Source: Agapetus fuscipes (taxonomy: Eukaryota > Arthropoda > Insecta > Trichoptera > Glossosomatidae). Taken from it: DNA of 64,000 bases. Of the stretch, positions 5,672 through 29,650 are shown piece after piece (positions within the stretch are counted from its first letter, which is position 1; each line of letters begins with the position of its first letter). The notes beneath the pieces are model-generated. The model saw only the letters and a program-made list of their open reading frames with translations. It was not told where the DNA came from and searched no databases. The stretch lies in assembly GCA_951799405.1 (NCBI GenBank), contig OX637332.1, positions 11,289,001-11,353,000 of the forward strand, in the 5' to 3' direction. Position numbers and translations under genes: made by a program.

Positions 5672-5675
5672 ATAA
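5672..5675. repeat. Target-site duplication of gypsy element, left copy
   Basis: ATAA directly before the 5' LTR. The same four bases follow the 3' LTR at 12821-12824. Confidence 0.85.
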
Positions 5676-5940
5676 TGTTATGTAAATATAAATATTGAAA
5701 TAAGTATGGGTAGTTATAGTTATAAGAATCCTCAAAAGTATTGGTAGGTAAGATCGATAATTATGTATAAGTGTAGAATTCTCTAGGCTAAGTAGGTATT
5801 TGTTATAATTATAGGAATACTGTATTGCATTGGTAGGTAGGATTTTGGTTGTGTCTAGGTAGTACGTGAAACATCGAGAAGTAATAATTACTCTGGAACC
5901 GTCTGGCGACTTTAGTTCTGGATCATACTGCTCTGAAGAG

Positions 5941-5946
5941 TATAAA
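5941..5946 (+). promoter_or_regulatory. LTR TATA box
   Basis: TATAAA lies in GAGTATAAAGGTGCG, about 265 bp into the LTR. Transcription would be expected to begin about 30 bp downstream near 5970. The 3' LTR has the same box at 12612-12617. Confidence 0.65.
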
Positions 5947-6078
5947 GGTGCGAATGGCCTGCAGAGCGGGCCAGTATCATAGCGACTCACAAACACATCG
6001 AAGTCATCTGATCAGTGAACCAAAACCAAGTAGAATAATCGAGAAAGTAGTGTGAAAATAAATATTGTAACAGTGTAA

Positions 6079-6084
6079 AATAAA
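6079..6084 (+). promoter_or_regulatory. LTR polyadenylation signal
   Basis: AATAAA in GTGTAAAATAAATAAG lies 65 bp before the LTR end. The equivalent in the 3' LTR is 12750-12755. Confidence 0.6.
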
Positions 6085-6151
6085 TAAGTTTTAAAGGAGA
6101 CCTGTGTATTTTTAATTTGGAAAGACAATTGAACCCTAATTACGTAACAAT

Positions 6152-6166
6152 TGGTGTCAGGTGCGG
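6152..6166 (+). promoter_or_regulatory. tRNA primer-binding site
   Basis: TGGTGTCAGGTGCGG starts two bases after the LTR. TGG pairs with the tRNA CCA end, and TGGTGTCAG resembles sites reported for tRNA-Leu primers. The tRNA identity is inferred. Confidence 0.75.
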
Positions 6167-6815
6167 AATTGTCAAGAAAAATTAAGATCTTCTGTCTAAA
6201 AATAAATAAAATAAATTAAATAGTGTTAAAATGAACTTTATTCAAATTGAACTTTGTGTGAACTGACTTTTGTGAAAACAAGTGTTTAAATAAATTTTTG
6301 TTAAAAGAAAAGACGCAAAAGCAAGTTGCTTATAAATTCTGGAACATCATATGGAACATAATTCTGGACATAACATAATGACTATTTTACCGCATTGAGA
6401 AAGTCATCAAATTGGACCATAGTTTTTTTATTATTGTGTGTGATTAAAAAAATAAAATAAATAAATAAAAATCTTGAAAAATATTACAAAAGAACGTTCC
6501 AGATTCATCGAGAAAAAGTTTTTGAATAACTATCCTTTGTTTACAAGTGTGTGAATGTACATTAAGTACCTACCTGTGTGTTTGAAAGACTTGAGACGAA
6601 ATAAATAATTATGTACTATCAGACATTATTATGTAAAAAAATATTGGTGAATTAAAAATAAATATTAAAAGACAGTACCTACCAATCAGTGTAATCAGAT
6701 AAATTATTATTTTTGCTAAAGTACGTATTCAAAACAGCTATATATATAAAACTCAAAACTTGTATTAAATAAATTTGAAAATATTTTTGTTTTGACGTAA
6801 ATTTTGAAAAAAAAA
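6167..6815 (+). other. Untranslated leader of the gypsy element
   Basis: About 650 bp of AT-rich sequence between primer site and Gag start, with no open frame of note. It probably contains packaging signals, but none can be pointed to. Confidence 0.5.
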
Positions 6816-8129
6816 ATGGCAACTAAAGTGAACGTCAAGGACCTCAAAGTCACTGAGCTTAAAAATGAGCTTCTGGAGAGGGACCTGGAGACCTCAGGAG
6901 GAAAGGCAGCCTTACAAGCACGCCTCATAGAGGCCTTGGAACAGTCAGGCGAAGACCCGGCATATTTTGTCATGGCGTCTGGAGGGGACCGCGCCCTTGA
7001 GGAGCTGAACATCAGCATCACAAAATCCATGAAGGAGGAGCTCACGGGAAACTTCACTGCCATGGAGGAGAAGATGGCTGACAACGCCAAGACCCTAGAG
7101 GAGAAAATGGCCAGCAACTTGACGGACCTGAAGGCTGAGATCGCTGAAAAAACCAAGACCCTGAAGGAGAAGATGACCGGGCTGGAGGAGAAGATGGCCG
7201 ACAGCGCCAGGACCCTGAAGGGAGAAATAGAGGTGAAGCTGACTGGTTTTGAGGAAACAGTTGCGGAAATGAAAACCCGCATTTCCACCCTGGAGGACCG
7301 TCTGCGTGCCGAGCTGGCTGACAAGTGCCAGATGGAGTCCACCAGGATATCCCCCAAAGGCCTTCACGACGAGATCGACCAGGGATGCTCAACTCCAACC
7401 AGGGTCACAAGAGGGGATGATGACCCTTCCCTAGCAAAGCACAACCTCCCAACCTTCGACGGGAAGACGTCGTGGGAGGAATACTTGACCCTCTTTGAGA
7501 CGGCTGCCATGATGGGAGCCTGGAGCCAGCAGAAGAAGGCTTCGGTTCTCAGCCTGTCGCTCCGAGGAGACGCTCTCAGGGTTCTGCAGGCCATACCCCT
7601 GGACAACCGTGGTGACTTTGGGCAGCTGAAGCAGCGCTTGGATATGCGCTATGGCCACAAGTGCCTGGAGCAGCTGTACAAGTCGCAGCTGAACACAAGG
7701 GTGCAGAAGCCCAACGAGAGCCTCCAGGAGTTTGAAATGGACATCGCCCGCCTGGTACGAGACGCTTACCCGACAGCCTCCGACGACATCTGTGAGAGCT
7801 TGGCAGTGGACAAGTTCCTAAATGGATTGCGGGAATGGGAGACGCAACAAGCCGTAAAACTGGCCCATCCCAAGGCTTTGAACGAGGCGCTCAGCCAAGC
7901 TCTCGAGTTTGAGGCTGTCAAACAGTCCATCAGGGGCCACGCCAGGGTTCGTGCAGTCGAGGCAGAGGAGGTCAAGCTACCTACAACCGAGGAGCTAATT
8001 GAAAAAGTGCTGGAACGTCTGAGACCTCGAAGACGAGACCCACGCTGCTGGAACTGCGGACAGCTGGGCCACCTTAGCACCAAGTGTCCCAAGCCTCAGA
8101 AACCCAGAAAACAGGCTGCGGAAAACTAG
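6816..8129 (+). CDS. gag: Gag polyprotein with N-terminal SAP motif
   Basis: 437 residues from ATG 6816 (the in-frame TTG at 6804 is an unlikely start). Gag forms the virus-like particle and binds RNA. Residues about 7-41 (DLKVTELKNELLERDLETSG, then KAALQARL) fit the SAP helix-extended-loop-helix motif, usually a DNA- or chromatin-binding module. Residues about 65-175 are a charged coiled coil with near-repeats of EEKMA and TLKEKM. Residues about 205-375 look like a gypsy capsid. Near the C terminus is a CCHC zinc knuckle (C411, C414, H419, C424). Codon use is GC-richer than the surroundings. The frame ends with TAG inside the overlap with pol. SAP on Gag is unusual and may relate to nuclear retention or target choice; that is inference. 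Confidence 0.93.
   Translation: MATKVNVKDLKVTELKNELLERDLETSGGKAALQARLIEALEQSGEDPAYFVMASGGDRALEELNISITKSMKEELTGNFTAMEEKMADNAKTLEEKMASNLTDLKAEIAEKTKTLKEKMTGLEEKMADSARTLKGEIEVKLTGFEETVAEMKTRISTLEDRLRAELADKCQMESTRISPKGLHDEIDQGCSTPTRVTRGDDDPSLAKHNLPTFDGKTSWEEYLTLFETAAMMGAWSQQKKASVLSLSLRGDALRVLQAIPLDNRGDFGQLKQRLDMRYGHKCLEQLYKSQLNTRVQKPNESLQEFEMDIARLVRDAYPTASDDICESLAVDKFLNGLREWETQQAVKLAHPKALNEALSQALEFEAVKQSIRGHARVRAVEAEEVKLPTTEELIEKVLERLRPRRRDPRCWNCGQLGHLSTKCPKPQKPRKQAAEN
8078..8129 (+). promoter_or_regulatory. gag-pol overlap requiring -1 frameshift
   Basis: The pol frame opens after a TAG at 8075-8077, and gag stops at 8127-8129, so any shift must occur within these 52 bases. Pol is in the -1 frame relative to gag. 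No canonical X XXY YYZ heptamer is present. The nearest candidates are GGAAAAC (8120-8126, abutting the gag stop) and AAAACAG (8108-8114). Confidence 0.7.
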
Positions 8130-11100
8130 AAAGGGTTAATGGGAAGGGGCAACCGTTGACCCACGCTGGAGAGGCCCTGAAATCTGCTGCTACTGTCGCA
8201 ACCGTGAGAGGAAAAGCCAGCAGCATTTTTATCAATGGCATAATAGATGGAGTAACTCGTGAACTACTGGTGGACACGGGAGCAACCAGGACAATTCTGA
8301 GACGCGACATAGTGGCACGAGGTAAGCAGATTGCACCAACAAAGTGGTCTCTGCACACCGCCACGGGAGAGTCAGCACAGGTGTATGGGGAGACGATTGC
8401 CACCTTCCAAATTGGCAGCACCACTTTTGATCATCGGACGTTGGTGGCCAACATTGAAGAAGACGTTATACTGGGAATGGACATACTGGACAGATTTGGG
8501 TGCAGTTTAAATTTAAAGAAAGGGTCCATTAAAATTGGAAATGAAGAAGTCATCCTGCAAAGACGGAAAGAACTGGCTGCACGTGTTATCCTAGCCAAGA
8601 ATACCGAAGTGAAGGGGCGATCCGAGATGATAGTGAGTGCCCGCCTGGATTCCAGTAGTACAAATGACCAAATCTGTATGATAGAACCGGAGAACATGGA
8701 CAATGTTAACAAAGGAGTCATGGTGGCAAGAACAGTGATTCGCGCAAAGGAGACCATTCCTGTCAAGATCATGAATGTGAACAGCTACCCAGTTAAAATG
8801 AATGAAGGTTTTGTTTTGGGCAGATGTGAGAGGATAACTTCCATTGTGCAACAGATGACAAACATGTCATGCGAAGGAAACAAATTGTCAACACAATTGG
8901 AAGCCCTGGTCCACGACGCTTCCCAAGGTCTAACCGAGGAAAACAAACGGAGAGTGAGGAGTTTGATCTGCCGCTACCAGAACATTTTCGAGGACTCTAA
9001 TGGCCGTCTGGGAAGAACCAAGGTAGTGCGACATAGCATAGACACCGGAGAAGCGAGACCAATAAAACAGGCTCCAAGAAGACTACCCTTTGCAAAGCGG
9101 GAAGAAGCTGACAAGATCATCAAAGACATGAGCAAGGATGGCATCATAGAACCATCAAGTAGCCCTTGGACATCCCCGGTGGTACTGGTGAAAAAGAAGG
9201 ATGGTACCACGAGATTTTGTGTGGACTACAGACTGCTCAACGATGTTACGAAAAAGGATAGTTACCCTCTGCCAAGGATTGACGACACCTTGGACACATT
9301 GGCAGGATGCACCATTTTTTCCACATTGGACCTGAAAAGTGGCTACTGGCAAGTTGAATTGGATGCCAAAGATAAGGAGAAAACTGCATTCTCGACTGGA
9401 TCTGGACTTTGGCAGTTCACCGTGATGCCATTTGGCTTATGCAATGCCCCCGCCACGTTTGAAAGGCTGATGGAGAATGTGCTGCGAGGACTGTCATGGG
9501 AAACCTGCCTGGTATACTTGGATGACATAATCATCCTGGGAAAGGACTTCAACCATCAGTTGAGAAATCTGGAGCAAGTTTTCGGGCGACTACAAGACGC
9601 TGGACTGAAGCTCAACCCGAAAAAGTGTAAGCTGTTCAAGAAACAAGTGAATTACCTGGGACACATAGTTTCTCAACGTGGAGTTGAAGTTGACCCTGCC
9701 AAAATCAAGGCAGTAAGAGACTGGCCCGTGCTGAAGGACAAACATGAAACTAGGAGTTTCCTGGGGCTGTGCACTTATTACAGGAGGTTTGTGCCAAGAT
9801 TTGCGGACATTGCAAAACCGCTCACCAAGCTTACGGAAGAAAACACTCGCTTCCATTGGAGTGATTCCTGCGCACAAGCATTTGAAGAGCTTAAGGGAAG
9901 ATTAACAAGTGCCCCCATCTTGAGCTACCCACGAAAAGATGGAAAGTTCATCCTGGATACCGACGCTAGTAATGTGGGGATAGGAGGCGTCCTTTCCCAA
10001 ATACAGGATGGGCATGAGACTGTTCTGGGTTACTTCAGTAAAGTGCTTTCCAAGCCAGAACGAAATTATTGCGTGACCAGACGAGAACTTCTTGCCGTGA
10101 TAAAATCAGTGGAACACTTCCGCAAATACTTGTACGGGAGAAAATTCACACTACGGACTGATCATGCTGCACTGGTTTGGCTTCTGAAATTCAAAAACCC
10201 AGAAGGGCAAGTGGCTAGATGGATTGAAAGGCTCCAGGAGTATGATTATGACTCCGAACATAGACCTGGCACGCTTCATCGAAATGCGGACGCATTATCC
10301 AGACGACCATGCGCCAGTGACTGCAAACATTGCAGCAAGATGGAGGACAAGGTAGCAATTGTCCAAAGGACGACCACCGAAGATGAGGACTGGCAAGATG
10401 AAAAATTGGCGCAAGACCAACTGAATGATCCGGACTTGAAGTATGTGATGGAATGGGCGCGAGAAGGAGAAAGGCCAACCTGGGAAAAACTCGCCCCCTT
10501 ATCACCAACTGTCAAGGCTTATTGGGCTCAATGGGGATCCATAGTGATAGAAGGAGGGTTTCTGAAACGAAAGATCGAGAAGGAAGACGGCACACTTAGA
10601 AGAAAGCAAACCCTCGTTCCGAGGAGCCGAGTACCGGAAATCCTTGGACTGCTGCATGGAGGAACTTCTGGAGGACATCTAGGCGTTAAGAAGACGCTGA
10701 AGAAAGTGAAAGAGCGATTTTACTGGATCAACTGCAGCGAAGACGTCAAAGATTGGTGTCGAAAATGTGTAACCTGTGCAACGGCCAATGGACCGCAAAG
10801 GAAAAGGCGAGCACCAATGCGTCAGTACAATGTTGGCAGCCCCTTTGAAAGAATTGCCATCGACATAGCTGGCCCATTTCCTACAACTGAGAAGGGTAAC
10901 AAGTACATCATGGTGGTGATGGATTACTTCAGCAAGTGGGTGGAAGCTTACTCAATCCCTAACCAAGAGGCCGTAACCGTGACTGAAGTTCTAGTTACCG
11001 AATTTATCAGCAGGTTTGGCGTACCCCTGGAATTACATTCTGATCAGGGAAGGAACTTTGAAGCTGCTATTTTCCAGCAAATGTGTGAGCGGCTAGGGAT

Positions 11101-12346
11101 CTACAAGACCAGGACCACTGCGCTACATCCACAGTCTGATGGAATGGTGGAAAGGATGAACCGTACCGTGGGGAGGTACTTAGCCAAAGTAGTGTCCAGC
11201 CATCAGCGGGACTGGGACCGACATCTGCCTTTGTTCTTATTGGCTTACCGGTCGGCTGTTCAGGAAACGACGAAGAAGACTCCCAGCAGCATACTGTTTG
11301 GGCGAGAAATGCGACTTCCTTGTGATCTCAAATTTGGCTGCAAACCAGGTGAAGACCTAGCCGGAGAAGACTATGTGACAGACCTTCGCAGGAGGCTGGA
11401 TGACATCCATGATCAGGTCCGCATGAACATCGGGGAAGCCAGCGATCAAATGAAGGAGCGCTATGACACCAGAGCTGACAGCATGGGGTACAAAGCTGGT
11501 GACTGGGTGTGGCTTTTTGACCCCAAGAGGCGCCAAGGATACTGTCCGAAACTTCAGCGTTCCTGGGACGGGCCGTACGAGATCTTGGAGCGCATCAACG
11601 ATGTGGTCTACCGCATAAAAAAGAGACCAAACGGAAAACCAAGGGTCGTGCACTACAATCGCCTCTCACCATACCTAGGCGATAATGATGACCAACCAGC
11701 CCAAAAAGTACGACAGTGCGTCGCATCCGAAAGATCACCAGCCTTTGAGACGTTTTGGGAGAACGCGAAGGCAGGGCAGAAGTTTCGCCATGGAGTGACC
11801 ACAGAAGTCCACAAGGACTTATTTGAGGTCACTAGGGACCACACACTGGCATGCAGTGTACCGGAAGATCTAGATATGTCTAGAGGAATTGCACGGGTCT
11901 TCCGATACAAATTCGGAGAACCGCAACCCTCGAGCAGCCCGCAAGGAAGAGCTCTGAGACTACCGAAGGGGCGTCAACAAGCATACTGCCTGGTTGTCCC
12001 GGATTCCAGCAACCTGGAAGAGGACTACAAGGCATTGTGGGACGGCCTTGTTGAGCTGCGTGACTACATGTTGGAGGATCAGCAGGCGCGTCTGGCAATA
12101 CCGAAGATGGGTGGCGGCCGCGCTAATCGAGACTGGCGGATAATCCGGAGTATGATTGAAGCAGTGTTCTCGGGAGTCGGCATCAGCGTCATGGTGTGCT
12201 GCGAGCAAGCGCAGCCGAGAGCCAGTGGGGAGAAATCCGTGGACTGCCACTTCTTCCTGACCACAGGGTGTCGACGTGGATCAGCATGCCCCTACCTACA
12301 CAGAGTCAAGACTGTTCCGGGACGAAACAGTCTAGGTGGGGGGTAG
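8084..12346 (+). CDS. pol: Pol polyprotein: PR-RT-RNase H-IN plus macrodomain and CCCH finger
   Basis: 1420 residues counted from GTG 8084; in life expressed by -1 frameshift from gag. Protease: DTG at 64-66. Reverse transcriptase: about 340-540, catalytic YLDD at 478-481. RNase H: about 615-740, DTDAS at 625-629. Integrase: zinc-binding H858, H865 and C892/C895/C898, catalytic D927, D987, E1023 (35 residues between the last two), GPY/F module about 1120-1190. Most gypsy Pols end here. This one continues about 200 residues: 1235-1378 resemble an OARD1/TARG1 macrodomain (KDLF 1244-1247, M1265, GIA 1268-1270, KFGE 1276-1279, PKMGGG 1340-1345, MIEAVF), then C1388, C1396, C1402, H1406 form a CX7CX5CX3H zinc finger. 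The stop abuts the 3' LTR. The frame is intact. Confidence 0.95.
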   Translation: MSQASETQKTGCGKLERVNGKGQPLTHAGEALKSAATVATVRGKASSIFINGIIDGVTRELLVDTGATRTILRRDIVARGKQIAPTKWSLHTATGESAQVYGETIATFQIGSTTFDHRTLVANIEEDVILGMDILDRFGCSLNLKKGSIKIGNEEVILQRRKELAARVILAKNTEVKGRSEMIVSARLDSSSTNDQICMIEPENMDNVNKGVMVARTVIRAKETIPVKIMNVNSYPVKMNEGFVLGRCERITSIVQQMTNMSCEGNKLSTQLEALVHDASQGLTEENKRRVRSLICRYQNIFEDSNGRLGRTKVVRHSIDTGEARPIKQAPRRLPFAKREEADKIIKDMSKDGIIEPSSSPWTSPVVLVKKKDGTTRFCVDYRLLNDVTKKDSYPLPRIDDTLDTLAGCTIFSTLDLKSGYWQVELDAKDKEKTAFSTGSGLWQFTVMPFGLCNAPATFERLMENVLRGLSWETCLVYLDDIIILGKDFNHQLRNLEQVFGRLQDAGLKLNPKKCKLFKKQVNYLGHIVSQRGVEVDPAKIKAVRDWPVLKDKHETRSFLGLCTYYRRFVPRFADIAKPLTKLTEENTRFHWSDSCAQAFEELKGRLTSAPILSYPRKDGKFILDTDASNVGIGGVLSQIQDGHETVLGYFSKVLSKPERNYCVTRRELLAVIKSVEHFRKYLYGRKFTLRTDHAALVWLLKFKNPEGQVARWIERLQEYDYDSEHRPGTLHRNADALSRRPCASDCKHCSKMEDKVAIVQRTTTEDEDWQDEKLAQDQLNDPDLKYVMEWAREGERPTWEKLAPLSPTVKAYWAQWGSIVIEGGFLKRKIEKEDGTLRRKQTLVPRSRVPEILGLLHGGTSGGHLGVKKTLKKVKERFYWINCSEDVKDWCRKCVTCATANGPQRKRRAPMRQYNVGSPFERIAIDIAGPFPTTEKGNKYIMVVMDYFSKWVEAYSIPNQEAVTVTEVLVTEFISRFGVPLELHSDQGRNFEAAIFQQMCERLGIYKTRTTALHPQSDGMVERMNRTVGRYLAKVVSSHQRDWDRHLPLFLLAYRSAVQETTKKTPSSILFGREMRLPCDLKFGCKPGEDLAGEDYVTDLRRRLDDIHDQVRMNIGEASDQMKERYDTRADSMGYKAGDWVWLFDPKRRQGYCPKLQRSWDGPYEILERINDVVYRIKKRPNGKPRVVHYNRLSPYLGDNDDQPAQKVRQCVASERSPAFETFWENAKAGQKFRHGVTTEVHKDLFEVTRDHTLACSVPEDLDMSRGIARVFRYKFGEPQPSSSPQGRALRLPKGRQQAYCLVVPDSSNLEEDYKALWDGLVELRDYMLEDQQARLAIPKMGGGRANRDWRIIRSMIEAVFSGVGISVMVCCEQAQPRASGEKSVDCHFFLTTGCRRGSACPYLHRVKTVPGRNSLGGG
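11786..12217 (+). other. Macrodomain segment of Pol (OARD1/TARG1-like)
   Basis: Residues about 1235-1378. Macrodomains bind ADP-ribose, and some remove it from proteins or nucleic acid. The order of conserved blocks (a DLF turn, LAxSVxEDxxM, GIAxxFxxKFG, a PxMGxG loop, then W and MIEAVF) fits the OARD1/TARG1 branch. TARG1 catalysis, as I recall, needs a Lys and an Asp just after the GxG loop. Here that loop reads GGGRANRDW, so the Asp position appears to be Ala or Asn and no matching Lys is evident. It may bind rather than cleave. Assigned by eye, without a profile search. Confidence 0.75.
12245..12301 (+). other. CCCH zinc finger at the Pol C terminus
   Basis: C1388, C1396, C1402 and H1406 give the spacing CX7CX5CX3H with aromatic residues between (HFF, PYLH), typical of RNA-binding CCCH fingers. 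It lies ten residues after the macrodomain and 14 residues before the end of Pol. Confidence 0.75.
12334..12346 (+). promoter_or_regulatory. Polypurine tract overlapping the pol stop
   Basis: AGGTGGGGGGTAG directly precedes the 3' LTR. It also encodes the last Gly residues and the TAG of Pol, so the second-strand primer and the protein end share the same bases. Confidence 0.8.
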
Positions 12347-12820
12347 TGTTATGTAAATATAAATATTGAAATAAGTATGGGTAGTTATAGTTATAAGAAT
12401 CCTCAAAAGTATTGGTAGGTAAGATCGATAATTATGTATAAGTGTAGAATTCTCTAGGCTAAGTAGGTATTTGTTATAATTATTGGAATACTGTATTGCA
12501 TTGGTAGGTAGGATTTTGGTTGTGTCTAGGTAGTACGTGAAACATCGAGAAGTAATAATTACTCTGGAACCGTCTGGCGACTTTAGTTCTGGATCATACT
12601 GCTCTGAAGAGTATAAAGGTGCGAATGGCCTGCAGAGCGGGCCAGTATCATAGCGACTCACAAACACATCGAAGTCATCTGATCAGTGAACCAAAACCAA
12701 GTAGAATAATCGAGAAAGTAGTGTGAAAATAAATATTGTAACAGTGTAAAATAAATAAGTTTTAAAGGAGACCTGTGTATTTTTAATTTGGAAAGACAAT
12801 TGAACCCTAATTACGTAACA
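12347..12820 (+). repeat. 3' long terminal repeat
   Basis: 474 bp, identical to the 5' LTR except at 12484 (T here, A at 5813). TATA box at 12612-12617, AATAAA at 12750-12755. Confidence 0.96.
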
Positions 12821-12824
12821 ATAA
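12821..12824. repeat. Target-site duplication of gypsy element, right copy
   Basis: ATAA, matching 5672-5675. Confidence 0.85.
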
Positions 12825-25386: not shown

Positions 25387-25700
25387 GCAGAAAAAATAAA
25401 CTTGAAGCAGCAAAAACATAAATACATAGTGTAAGATTTAGCAAACATATAAAACACATAAAAGCAGAAAAAAGAAACAAAGAAGCAGCAAAAACATAAT
25501 TATATAGTGTAAGATATAGTATACAGGTATATTAAAATAAGTATAAACAGCAGAAAAAAGAATCAAGAAGAACAAAAACAAAAAATGTGTAGTGTAACAG
25601 ATAATAATATATAAGTATGACAAAATAAGCACAACAGCAGAAAAAAAAGAAACAAGAATCAGTAAAAATAAATAAATGTATGCATAGTGTATAAAAACCT
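25387..25700 (-). repeat. Tandem repeat in the LINE 3' UTR
   Basis: Four diverged units start with GCAGAAAAAA at 25387, 25464, 25550 and 25637 (spacings 77, 86, 87). Each contains AAAACATA-like and TAGTGTAAGAT-like blocks. The last reaches the ORF2 stop. Confidence 0.8.
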
Positions 25701-28540
25701 AAAGCTTAGCAGTGACAAAAAAATGCTTCAAAACTCCAATACTGTCAGGGGCAAAGGGGTCGAAATGCTTCAATTGCTTGTTGTAGACAGTGCATGCACG
25801 CTCTACAAAGGAATTCTGAAGGTAGCTTGTCCTGGAGATGCCAATATAAAAGAGGATCTTTTCACGGAAAATCCTATTAGGTACATTTATTTTTATCCTG
25901 TCAAGCAAATATGGCGAGTCAATTTGATTGTTTAAAATTTTGTATAGAAATAGTGCATCTCTATATGATCTACGGGTTTCAAGAGTTTGAGTGGAGTATA
26001 GGCTACATGAAGATGCGTAGTCAAGATAATGGTGATTTCTGAAATTTAAGTATCTTAAAAATTTCTTCTGCACTCTTTCTATTTGTGTTATGTAGACTTT
26101 ATAATGTGGATTCCAAATGACTGAACAGTATTCCAAGCGAGATCTAACAAAAGCGTTATAAGTCAATTTGAAAACATCTAACGAGGTAAATTCTTTGCAT
26201 AATCGTAGGACATATCCTAACATGCTCAGGGACTTTTTGACTGTACAGGATATGTGAGCTTGAAAATTAAGCTTACTATCTAGAAATACCCCTAAATCTT
26301 TAATTAAATTGGTTCTGGGAAGAGGTAAATTTTTTAATTTATATTCGTGGAAAACAACATGATTATTTCTACAGAAAGAGACAACACTACACTTGCTAAT
26401 ATTAATGGATATATTGTTATTGATGCAATACATCTGTAAACACTCAAGATCCTCCTGTAGTAAGGCGCAGTCGATGGGGGAATTGATATTTTTGAAAATT
26501 TTAGCATCATCTGCATATAATAATATTTCGGAGTGTTTAATATAAGATGTTATGTCATTTAGAAAAAGAACAAACAAGAGAGGGCCGAGATGGGAACCCT
26601 GAGGTACTCCAGATGATACTGGAAGAAAAATTGAGATGTATCCCTTAATAGCCACTGCCTGTGTTCTATTTTTTAGGTAAGAAGATACCCAGCGTAGAAG
26701 ATCGCCATGCACACCAAGGTCGCCTAATTTTCTTATAAGAAAGTTGTGGTCAATTTTGTCGAAAGCTTTAGAGAAATCGGTGTATATTGCATCAACTTGA
26801 CCCTTTACTCTAAACGCTTCATAAATGTGACTTGTAAATTCGCTCAGATTTGTTTCAGTGGATTTCTTGCTGATAAAGCCATGTTGTTGATTAATTATGT
26901 GGGGGCGAACTGCTGCATATAGTTGATCATAGACAATTTTTTCAAACACCTTGCTAAAAATTGGTAGTTTTGAAATTGGACGATAATTAGCTATATCATT
27001 TTTGTTGTCAGATTTGAAAATTGGAGTAATGAAAGCTCTTTTCCAGGAAGTCGGAAAAGTACATTCCGCCAGTGATAATTTAAATAATATAGTAATTGGG
27101 ATGGATAGTTGTTTTGCACATTTGGATATGAACAGGGGAGGGATGCCATCGGACCCCGACCCTTTATTTAGGTCAACACTAACTAGACGTTTACATACAT
27201 CAGATTTATCGACGGTAATCGAGTGTATATCACAAAGACTATTTTGTACAGCATTAGAGGTATTATTAATAGGAAAAGGTTCTTCAAAGCTTGAGTGAAA
27301 ATAATCATTAAATGCATTACATATGGACAAACCGTTGGTGAATTTATTTTTACCGAAATAAACTTCATCAGGAATATCTTGATGGTTACGTTTAGACTTT
27401 GCGTATTTCCAAAATTGACAAGGATTAATTTTTATAGAGTTTTCTGTTGTCTGCAAGAAATTCCTACGGCATTGCTTTTCGATTGTCTTCTGACGCTTCC
27501 TTAGGGTTGTAAAAGACAGGTAATCAAGAGGATTTCCACAAATTTTCCACCTTTTATGTATTCTCTTCTTTTCGGCTATCAGTTTTATGAGCGAGCTAGA
27601 GTACCACATGGGGAAATTTGGCTGATTCTTAATTAAAACAGATGGAATATAACTTTCGATGATGGAGTCAATAATGGAGTAAAAATGTAAGGTTGCAGAT
27701 TCTGTGTCACGGTATGAAAGTTCATTCACCCAATTCACTTGAGAAAGTCTTTCACAAATTATATTGTAATCAGCTTTGTTGAAAAGCTTTGAGTATCTGG
27801 GTGGAGCTCTAGTTGATTTTACAGATGTCTGGTATGCAAAAGATAAAGTTACAGGGACGTGATGAGGGTCAACATTTGTCAATGGCGAGTCGCTTTGAGC
27901 AACTTCACAAGGTATATTTAAAAATATTAAATCTAGGATTCGATTATTTGAGTTTATTAAACTGAAATAGGTTATTTAGAGATAAAAAATCATTTATTGT
28001 AGAGAGTATTTGAATGTTATCACCAAAGGGTTCTAAATGGTTTCCATATGAAGAATTAGACCAACTAATAGAAGGAAGATTATAATCTCCTAGAACAATA
28101 TAAATGTCATCTGGGTCCGATAGCATTACATCTGAGATTAGGTCGAAAAGGGTAGATATTTGGCTAAAATTTGAGGAGCCATTTGGGAGATAAGATAAAA
28201 CCACATTTATAGATCTTTTAGATGATGGAGACTTGATCCTAATCCAGAGATTCTCTCCTGCGTGAGTCCAGGTGCCACAGATGCACGAACTAAAAGTCTT
28301 TCTGACAGCAACCAGAACCCCACCACCAGAAAGTTTTCCGGTGGAGATCAAATCTCTATCATTCCTATATACATTATATCGATCATCCAGCAACTCTCCG
28401 TCAAAAATACTAGGGGTAAGCCAGGTCTCCGCTATGCATATAATGTCATACTCATTGCAAGATACATTTTCAAAGAAAGTTTGTAGCTTCGTTCGTAATC
28501 CTCGTGCATTCTGATAGTATAATGACAAATAAACAGCCAT
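25699..28540 (-). pseudogene. LINE ORF2: endonuclease-reverse transcriptase, frameshifted
   Basis: ORF2 nicks the target and copies element RNA at the nick. ATG at 28540 starts YYQNARGL (endonuclease Asn), then IAETWL (catalytic Glu) and LGDYN (Asp/Asn). This frame stops at 27944. The frame from about 27955 down to 25699 carries the last endonuclease motif (DPHHVPV) and the reverse transcriptase: GSGSDGIPP, ANYRPIS, DFSKAFDKIDH, SSGVPQGSHLGPLLF and YADD (about 26505-26516). A single-base length change near 27955-27965 separates the halves. No RNase H domain is evident. The rest has no internal stop, so the break is probably recent. Confidence 0.9.
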
Positions 28541-28598
28541 TGTATAAAAAGTTAAAATCTAGCAATACAAAAAAATAAAAATTTATAATATCCAAATC

Positions 28599-29567
28599 CT
28601 ACTTCAATTTATTTAGGACCTCCACAGAGCTAATCAAAATCTTAGGAGACTGTTCATCCTTTCTAATGAAAATTCGGGAATCCCTTACCCAGGTAAATTT
28701 GTACCCTAGGTTTCTCTGTACCTCTTTGGTCTGTGCCAGCAGTTTCTTTGTGCACAGGGTCAGATGGTCGTTGATAAAGATCCGTTTGTTTGTTTTGATC
28801 CCTAGCTCGCTGGCCATTAAGCCCTTTCGCCTTTTTATTGCCGCCATTAGTGCATCCTTCGAACATTTTTTGTTGAATATTATTATAATAGGCGGATCTC
28901 TTAGTTCGGTAGTTTTCATGGTACTGGCTAAAGTATTTGGTGGTTGTCTCCGACGGATCCTGTGACATGATTCCACGTCCATAGCCACCTCTGGAACTCC
29001 CAGCTTCGTGGCAATATTTTTAATTGATATGCTAAGGTCCTCACCAGAGACGATCGGGAGTCCGGACAGCTCCACATTCCTTTGGCGGGAAATAATTTCA
29101 TTTTTAAGTATTGTATTTTTAAGTGAATCGACTGACTCACTTAGTTCTTTTATTTTGCAGTCAGCAATCCTCGCATCCTCGTTTAACTTTGTAATGGTCG
29201 AGTTCATCTCGTCATAGCGATTAGAGAAAAATAATAGAGAATCTTTCATCTCCCGTATCTCATTCTTTAATTCTTTCATTTCTCCGAGGAGCAGGAGTGT
29301 GTCTGCTGTCGGAGGTGATGATGGTGATGATGGCCGGACGGGTGGATTTGCCGCAGAGGTGAATGCCGCAGAAGATGGGCTGGGGCCCAGTTTTGATGTC
29401 CTTGGGTCCTCTAGCCTGCATGAGTCACACATAAATTGTGATCTCGTCCTTGTAGACATTTTCTCAGCTGATTGACGCTGGCATGATTGGTGGTACGACT
29501 TATAGCACCTGGAACATTTTAATGCCTTTTTTGGGCTCATTTCATCCGAGCATATATGGCACTTCAT
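28599..29567 (-). CDS. LINE ORF1 protein with PHD finger and coiled coil
   Basis: 322 residues from ATG 29567; the frame extends upstream to 29624 only through a TTG. ORF1 proteins bind the element RNA. Residues 3-50 form a complete PHD C4HC3 finger (C3, C6, C18, C21, H26, C29, C47, C50). A proline/serine linker follows, then a coiled coil at about 88-155 (EMKELKNEIREMKDSL). The remainder (RNVELSGLP, HRIRRR, then GYKFTWVRDSRIFIRK near the end) resembles the nucleic-acid-binding half of Jockey/CR1 ORF1 proteins. The finger sits almost at the N terminus, so the true start may have been lost. The frame is intact. Confidence 0.85.
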   Translation of the reverse strand: MKCHICSDEMSPKKALKCSRCYKSYHQSCQRQSAEKMSTRTRSQFMCDSCRLEDPRTSKLGPSPSSAAFTSAANPPVRPSSPSSPPTADTLLLLGEMKELKNEIREMKDSLLFFSNRYDEMNSTITKLNEDARIADCKIKELSESVDSLKNTILKNEIISRQRNVELSGLPIVSGEDLSISIKNIATKLGVPEVAMDVESCHRIRRRQPPNTLASTMKTTELRDPPIIIIFNKKCSKDALMAAIKRRKGLMASELGIKTNKRIFINDHLTLCTKKLLAQTKEVQRNLGYKFTWVRDSRIFIRKDEQSPKILISSVEVLNKLK

Positions 29568-29650
29568 GTTTTCTGATGTGATTGCCAAATGTTGTAAAAG
29601 ATTCACACTGTTCACTGTTGACAATTTGCAGATTATTTTTTGTTAAAAAT

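Follow-up and report, generated by a model that had tools for sequence, protein, structure and literature searches.

The DNA stretch analyzed here, referred to as the window, comprises 64,000 nucleotides of contig OX637332.1 from Agapetus fuscipes, and contains an intact Ty3/gypsy element at positions 5676–12820, whose Pol protein continues past the integrase into a macrodomain of the TARG1/OARD1 type. Two 474-bp long terminal repeats (LTRs) on the plus strand, of the form TGTTA...TAACA (5′ LTR at 5676–6149; 3′ LTR at 12347–12820), show one mismatch over 474 bp, and are flanked by the target-site duplication ATAA (5672–5675 and 12821–12824). Between them are two plus-strand open reading frames (ORFs) that overlap in different frames. 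The Gag ORF (6804–8129) encodes a SAP domain, imperfect repeats, Retrotrans_gag and a CCHC zinc knuckle. The Pol ORF (8084–12346, 1420 amino acids) encodes protease, reverse transcriptase (RT), RNase H and integrase in this order, and then the macrodomain and a CCCH zinc finger. With the last base of the Pol stop codon at 12346, the 3′ LTR follows directly at 12347. This leaves no space for an env gene between them, and the element does not qualify as an envelope-bearing errantivirus. The original prediction of a young, intact element with LTRs one base apart and an open Pol frame thus holds.

In Pol, the integrase has a C-terminal module of the GPY/F type (11570–11671, plus strand), matching PF22938 (Integrase_p58_C). 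The macrodomain follows at 11792–12196 and the CCCH finger (C-x7-C-x5-C-x3-H) at 12245–12301, both on the plus strand. The tail was not a separate gene, as it shares a single open frame with Pol. It has the alpha/beta/alpha macro fold with a significant match, and matches OARD1 with an E value of 4.1e-48, against 1.1e-8 for structurally known macrodomains outside OARD1, DarG among them. The proposed fusion of an OARD1/TARG1-like macrodomain to the integrase is therefore confirmed by profile and fold, and a chance resemblance of motifs is ruled out by the same matches. By sequence and tree, the tail is classed with the TARG1/OARD1 hydrolases, human OARD1 being the sole eukaryotic reference.

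The CCCH finger had been missed in the original prediction. With the 221-residue tail, it scores 21.6 bits against Pfam PF00642 (cut-off 20.5), and with a 313-residue piece 19.9 bits, slightly under the cut-off. Of 24 tails that were judged for it, 16 have such a finger, that of the window among them; P0007, P0020 and P0030 were left out of the count. Its best sequence match in PDB is CPSF30 (E 0.002). These observations suit a tail that binds RNA or complementary DNA (cDNA) through the finger together with a macrodomain turned into a surface for nucleic acid or poly(A), ADP-ribose being irrelevant. However, the conserved columns include Lys84 and Asp125, which serve ADP-ribose hydrolysis, and both residues are kept in 6/6 members of a subclade (P0006, P0009, P0010, P0024, P0025 and P0028) that lacks the finger. 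We consider this account improbable.

Relatives were collected through the integrase. Among 7986 scored candidates that share most words with it, 2295 proteins matched at E 1e-10 or better, and the best 120 of them were studied. Here ‘tail’ refers to more than 90 residues beyond the anchor. Before tails were counted, P0002 was removed because its long remainder resembles a second Pol copy, and P0080 because its 221-residue remainder looks unrelated by eye. The same tail was found in 26 of the best 120 of 2295 integrase matches, ruling out that it is restricted to the window copy. Together with the macrodomain match, this means that neither outcome named earlier as a refutation occurred. Two beetles are named as hosts of Pols with the tail, Callosobruchus maculatus (P0020 and P0030) and Molorchus minor (P0049). 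Other source records are Erysiphe pulchra (P0022 and P0025) and Klebsiella (P0027), which we attribute to contamination.

Other searches returned less. When the tail was scored at Pol length in the protein set, none of 347 candidates reached E 0.001, but this search was not sensitive, as tails that it missed were later recovered through the integrase. At tail length, the protein set gave a single near-copy, P0001, which lies outside the 120 and is absent from the tail counts. One genome-contig scan yielded no relative, nor did viral-contig scans with the integrase and with a single tail.

An integrase tree was built from 80 rows, that is, 79 of the 120 Pols (P0002–P0080) and the window. One clade (support 100/99) holds 27 tail-bearing rows, the window included, among its 30 rows, compared with 0/50 outside it. 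Tail gain and loss take a minimum of four changes on this tree, three of them forced by starred branches. The tail-less rows in the clade are P0004, P0026 and P0029. The AU test rejects a clade that is made up of the 27 tail-bearing rows and no others (p 4.3e-10), because P0004 and P0026 are placed among tail-bearing rows. These two are losses or recombinants, the two courses not being told apart. P0029 stands at an open fork, where the tail-less state may be primitive or a loss. Judged by integrase, P0004 is closely related to the window element, and its Pol stops soon past the GPY/F module, as in tail-less elements. P0026 has a 73-residue remainder with what appear by eye to be remnants of the CCCH end.

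A macrodomain tree was built from 23 of the 26 tails, the window, human OARD1 and 19 of 25 viral loci. P0007 and P0030, whose sequences are incomplete, and P0049 were omitted from this tree, as well as from the divergence regression and the conserved-site comparison below. One tail alignment took in 21 of the 26 tails and the window. The window copy groups with the 23 relatives in a single branch (99/94), next to which stands human OARD1; the viral-contig sequences are separate (100/98). A single capture by an ancestral element fits both the integrase and the macrodomain trees. The donor was probably an animal OARD1 gene, human OARD1 being the only eukaryotic reference in the tree. The 25 viral loci came from a scan of IMG/VR viral contigs with the tail alignment, and the matching stretches of 19 were translated. 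By eye, the TK and GCGLD motifs are retained in all 19, and the contigs are presumed to be phage. It is possible that these viral TARG1-type macrodomains counter DarT-type defence.

The active site can be read against TARG1. In that enzyme, the nucleophile at the distal ribose is Lys84, and the resulting adduct is resolved by Asp125. The residues that hold adenosine include Asp20, Leu21, Phe22, Ile44, Leu47 and Pro118; the pyrophosphate is held by the GxG loop, and His32, Cys33, Ser35 and Thr83 are at the distal ribose (PMC6397177). Among the relatives whose rows reach each site, Lys84 is kept in 23/25 and Asp125 in 22/24, and the full published pattern, TKx(30,35)Px[IL]GxGxD, is found in 16/26 tails. 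The window copy lacks this pattern, as the codon is Pro at the Lys84 position (11999–12001, plus strand) and Ala at the Asp125 position (12122–12124, plus strand). The substitution of the catalytic Asp had been predicted correctly, and the loss of Lys84 has to be added to it.

Substitutions in the window copy were compared over conserved sites, with a threshold of 80% conservation or more among the remaining rows. The window departs at 5/5 sites of the catalytic and distal-ribose pocket, 0/6 on the adenosine and pyrophosphate side and 10/36 elsewhere, indicating that loss is concentrated on the catalytic pocket (pocket versus rest, Fisher p=0.002, uncorrected for being one of 24 rows tested). 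In the sister P0003, the corresponding values are 0/5, 0/6 and 10/38. With Lys84 and Asp125 lost and the conserved adenosine and pyrophosphate side kept, the window copy probably hydrolyzes no longer and at most binds ADP-ribose. The earlier suggestion that binding is likelier than hydrolysis therefore suits the window and as many as three further tails in which catalytic residues are altered (P0013, P0015 and P0023, placed away from the window copy on the tree), but not the clade, because most relatives keep both residues.

In the window lineage, the macrodomain could instead be a passenger under relaxed constraint that is heading to loss. For its integrase distance, the window tail is the lowest of 24 in identity (mean residual −0.09, followed by −0.075 for P0013 and −0.056 for P0003), its end branch in the macrodomain tree is 1.34, and no rows have more changes at the remaining conserved sites than the window and P0003 (10 each). 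Together with the tail-less P0004, these values make relaxed constraint a live rival and weigh against retained function. On the other hand, the ORF is unbroken and the LTRs of the element differ at a single base, the CCCH finger is retained, P0001 is likewise open with 99% identity over the tail, loss is concentrated on the catalytic pocket, and conserved sites outside it show no excess of changes over P0003, whose pocket is unaltered. This course has a substantial chance, short of an even one.

Alternatively, the macrodomain could be a reader or tether throughout, guiding integrase to ADP-ribosylated chromatin or broken DNA, with catalysis incidental and losable as in the window. Chromodomains guide chromoviral integrases; in chromoviruses, the chromodomain lies behind the GPY/F module of integrase and reads methylated histones. 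The extra domain of the present element has the same place, directly behind the integrase, but is a macrodomain rather than a chromodomain. The window pattern of a kept binding side with a changed pocket agrees with a reader, as do at least three changes at Lys84 and at least two at Asp125 on the tree. Yet a pure reader would not need Lys84 and Asp125, which most members keep, and we regard it as unlikely.

We favor, at a probability of roughly 0.6, that a TARG1/OARD1-type macrodomain was captured once, in frame, by the ancestor of a Ty3/gypsy clade, and would be an active hydrolase in most members and at most a binder in the window. At the level of sequence, domain identity, conservation across the clade, the single branch and a TARG1 active site that most members have kept are all evident. 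Several points count against this. The tail is not always needed, as P0004 and P0026 lie inside the clade without one; the macrodomain tree holds no insect OARD1; three rows have a changed Lys84 and three a changed Asp125 when the window is counted with its relatives, in repeated events as counted above; and P0023 is altered on both pocket sides (3/5 and 4/6).

Elsewhere in the window, three minus-strand ORFs at 25699–29624 match reverse transcriptase, endonuclease (Exo_endo_phos), and PHD plus Baculo_FP_2nd, and look like a non-LTR retrotransposon split over frames. In the Gag region at window positions 6804–7300, the SAP domain stands at the start (PF02037, E 3.7e-8), and behind it are five imperfect repeats in steps of 33 to 54 bases that may encode a coiled coil. 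An Rfam scan of the window gave zero matches.

The tail resembles TARG1/OARD1 (C6orf130), an ALC1-type hydrolase, in sequence, fold, D20-L21-F22 and GxG, and in the Lys84/Asp125 pair of most relatives. It differs in being fused to a Ty3/gypsy integrase with a CCCH finger behind it in most judged members, and the window copy differs further in lacking the pair. The macrodomain of the DarG antitoxin and the viral-contig TARG1-like proteins, which have a separate branch here, belong to the same ALC1-type class with a catalytic Lys, whereas alphavirus and coronavirus macrodomains, from RNA viruses, belong to a different class (PMC6397177). Fish epsilon-like endogenous retroviruses have macro domain ORFs (Basta et al. 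2009, as cited in PMC4977317). They are retroelements with a macro domain like the window element, but theirs is in additional ORFs and its type is unstated in the citing passage. The text of PMC4299795 has no mention of a macro domain. No report of a macrodomain–Ty3/gypsy integrase fusion was found in full-text searches, with most subscription journals and annotated transposon collections outside this scope.

Under single capture, the clade ancestor would have gained the domain in frame behind its integrase; in most judged members, the CCCH finger follows the macrodomain. In most members, a putative ADP-ribosylhydrolase would travel with RT and integrase on the element RNA and cDNA. Its candidate targets are host-placed ADP-ribose on thymine or uracil bases, on end phosphates, or on Pol and its partners. 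For TARG1, reversal of thymine-linked ADP-ribose on DNA is documented, with no rescue by K84A (PMC8501950). In vitro, it also strips the ends of DNA and RNA of ADP-ribose (PMC8385414). Uracil-linked ADP-ribose on RNA is reversed by TARG1 and DarG, and fly Targ1 and Targ3 are active on a synthetic probe of it (PMC13036486). Because a Pol-borne domain of this type would sit on RNA, cDNA and the integration complex, most members probably employ it to erase ADP-ribose from nucleic acid or proteins of their own. The earlier idea that the element counters or exploits host ADP-ribosylation is plausible. More specifically and only tentatively, this arthropod clade might use a CCCH-guided TARG1-type eraser to clean its own RNA and cDNA, some lineages including the window having turned it into a non-catalytic ADP-ribose binder.

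If this were true, hosts of the clade, two beetles being named so far, would use nucleic-acid ADP-ribosylation against retroelements. TARG1 and its kin clear ADP-ribose from DNA and RNA, and the purpose of this nucleic-acid modification in animals is unsettled. The retention of a TARG1-type enzyme on the protein that replicates and integrates the elements of this clade suggests that retroelements are subject to ADP-ribosylation. Such a clade offers a direct route to asking which molecule carries the modification, and comparisons are ready-made in nature, as some members have the catalytic pair and others lack it.
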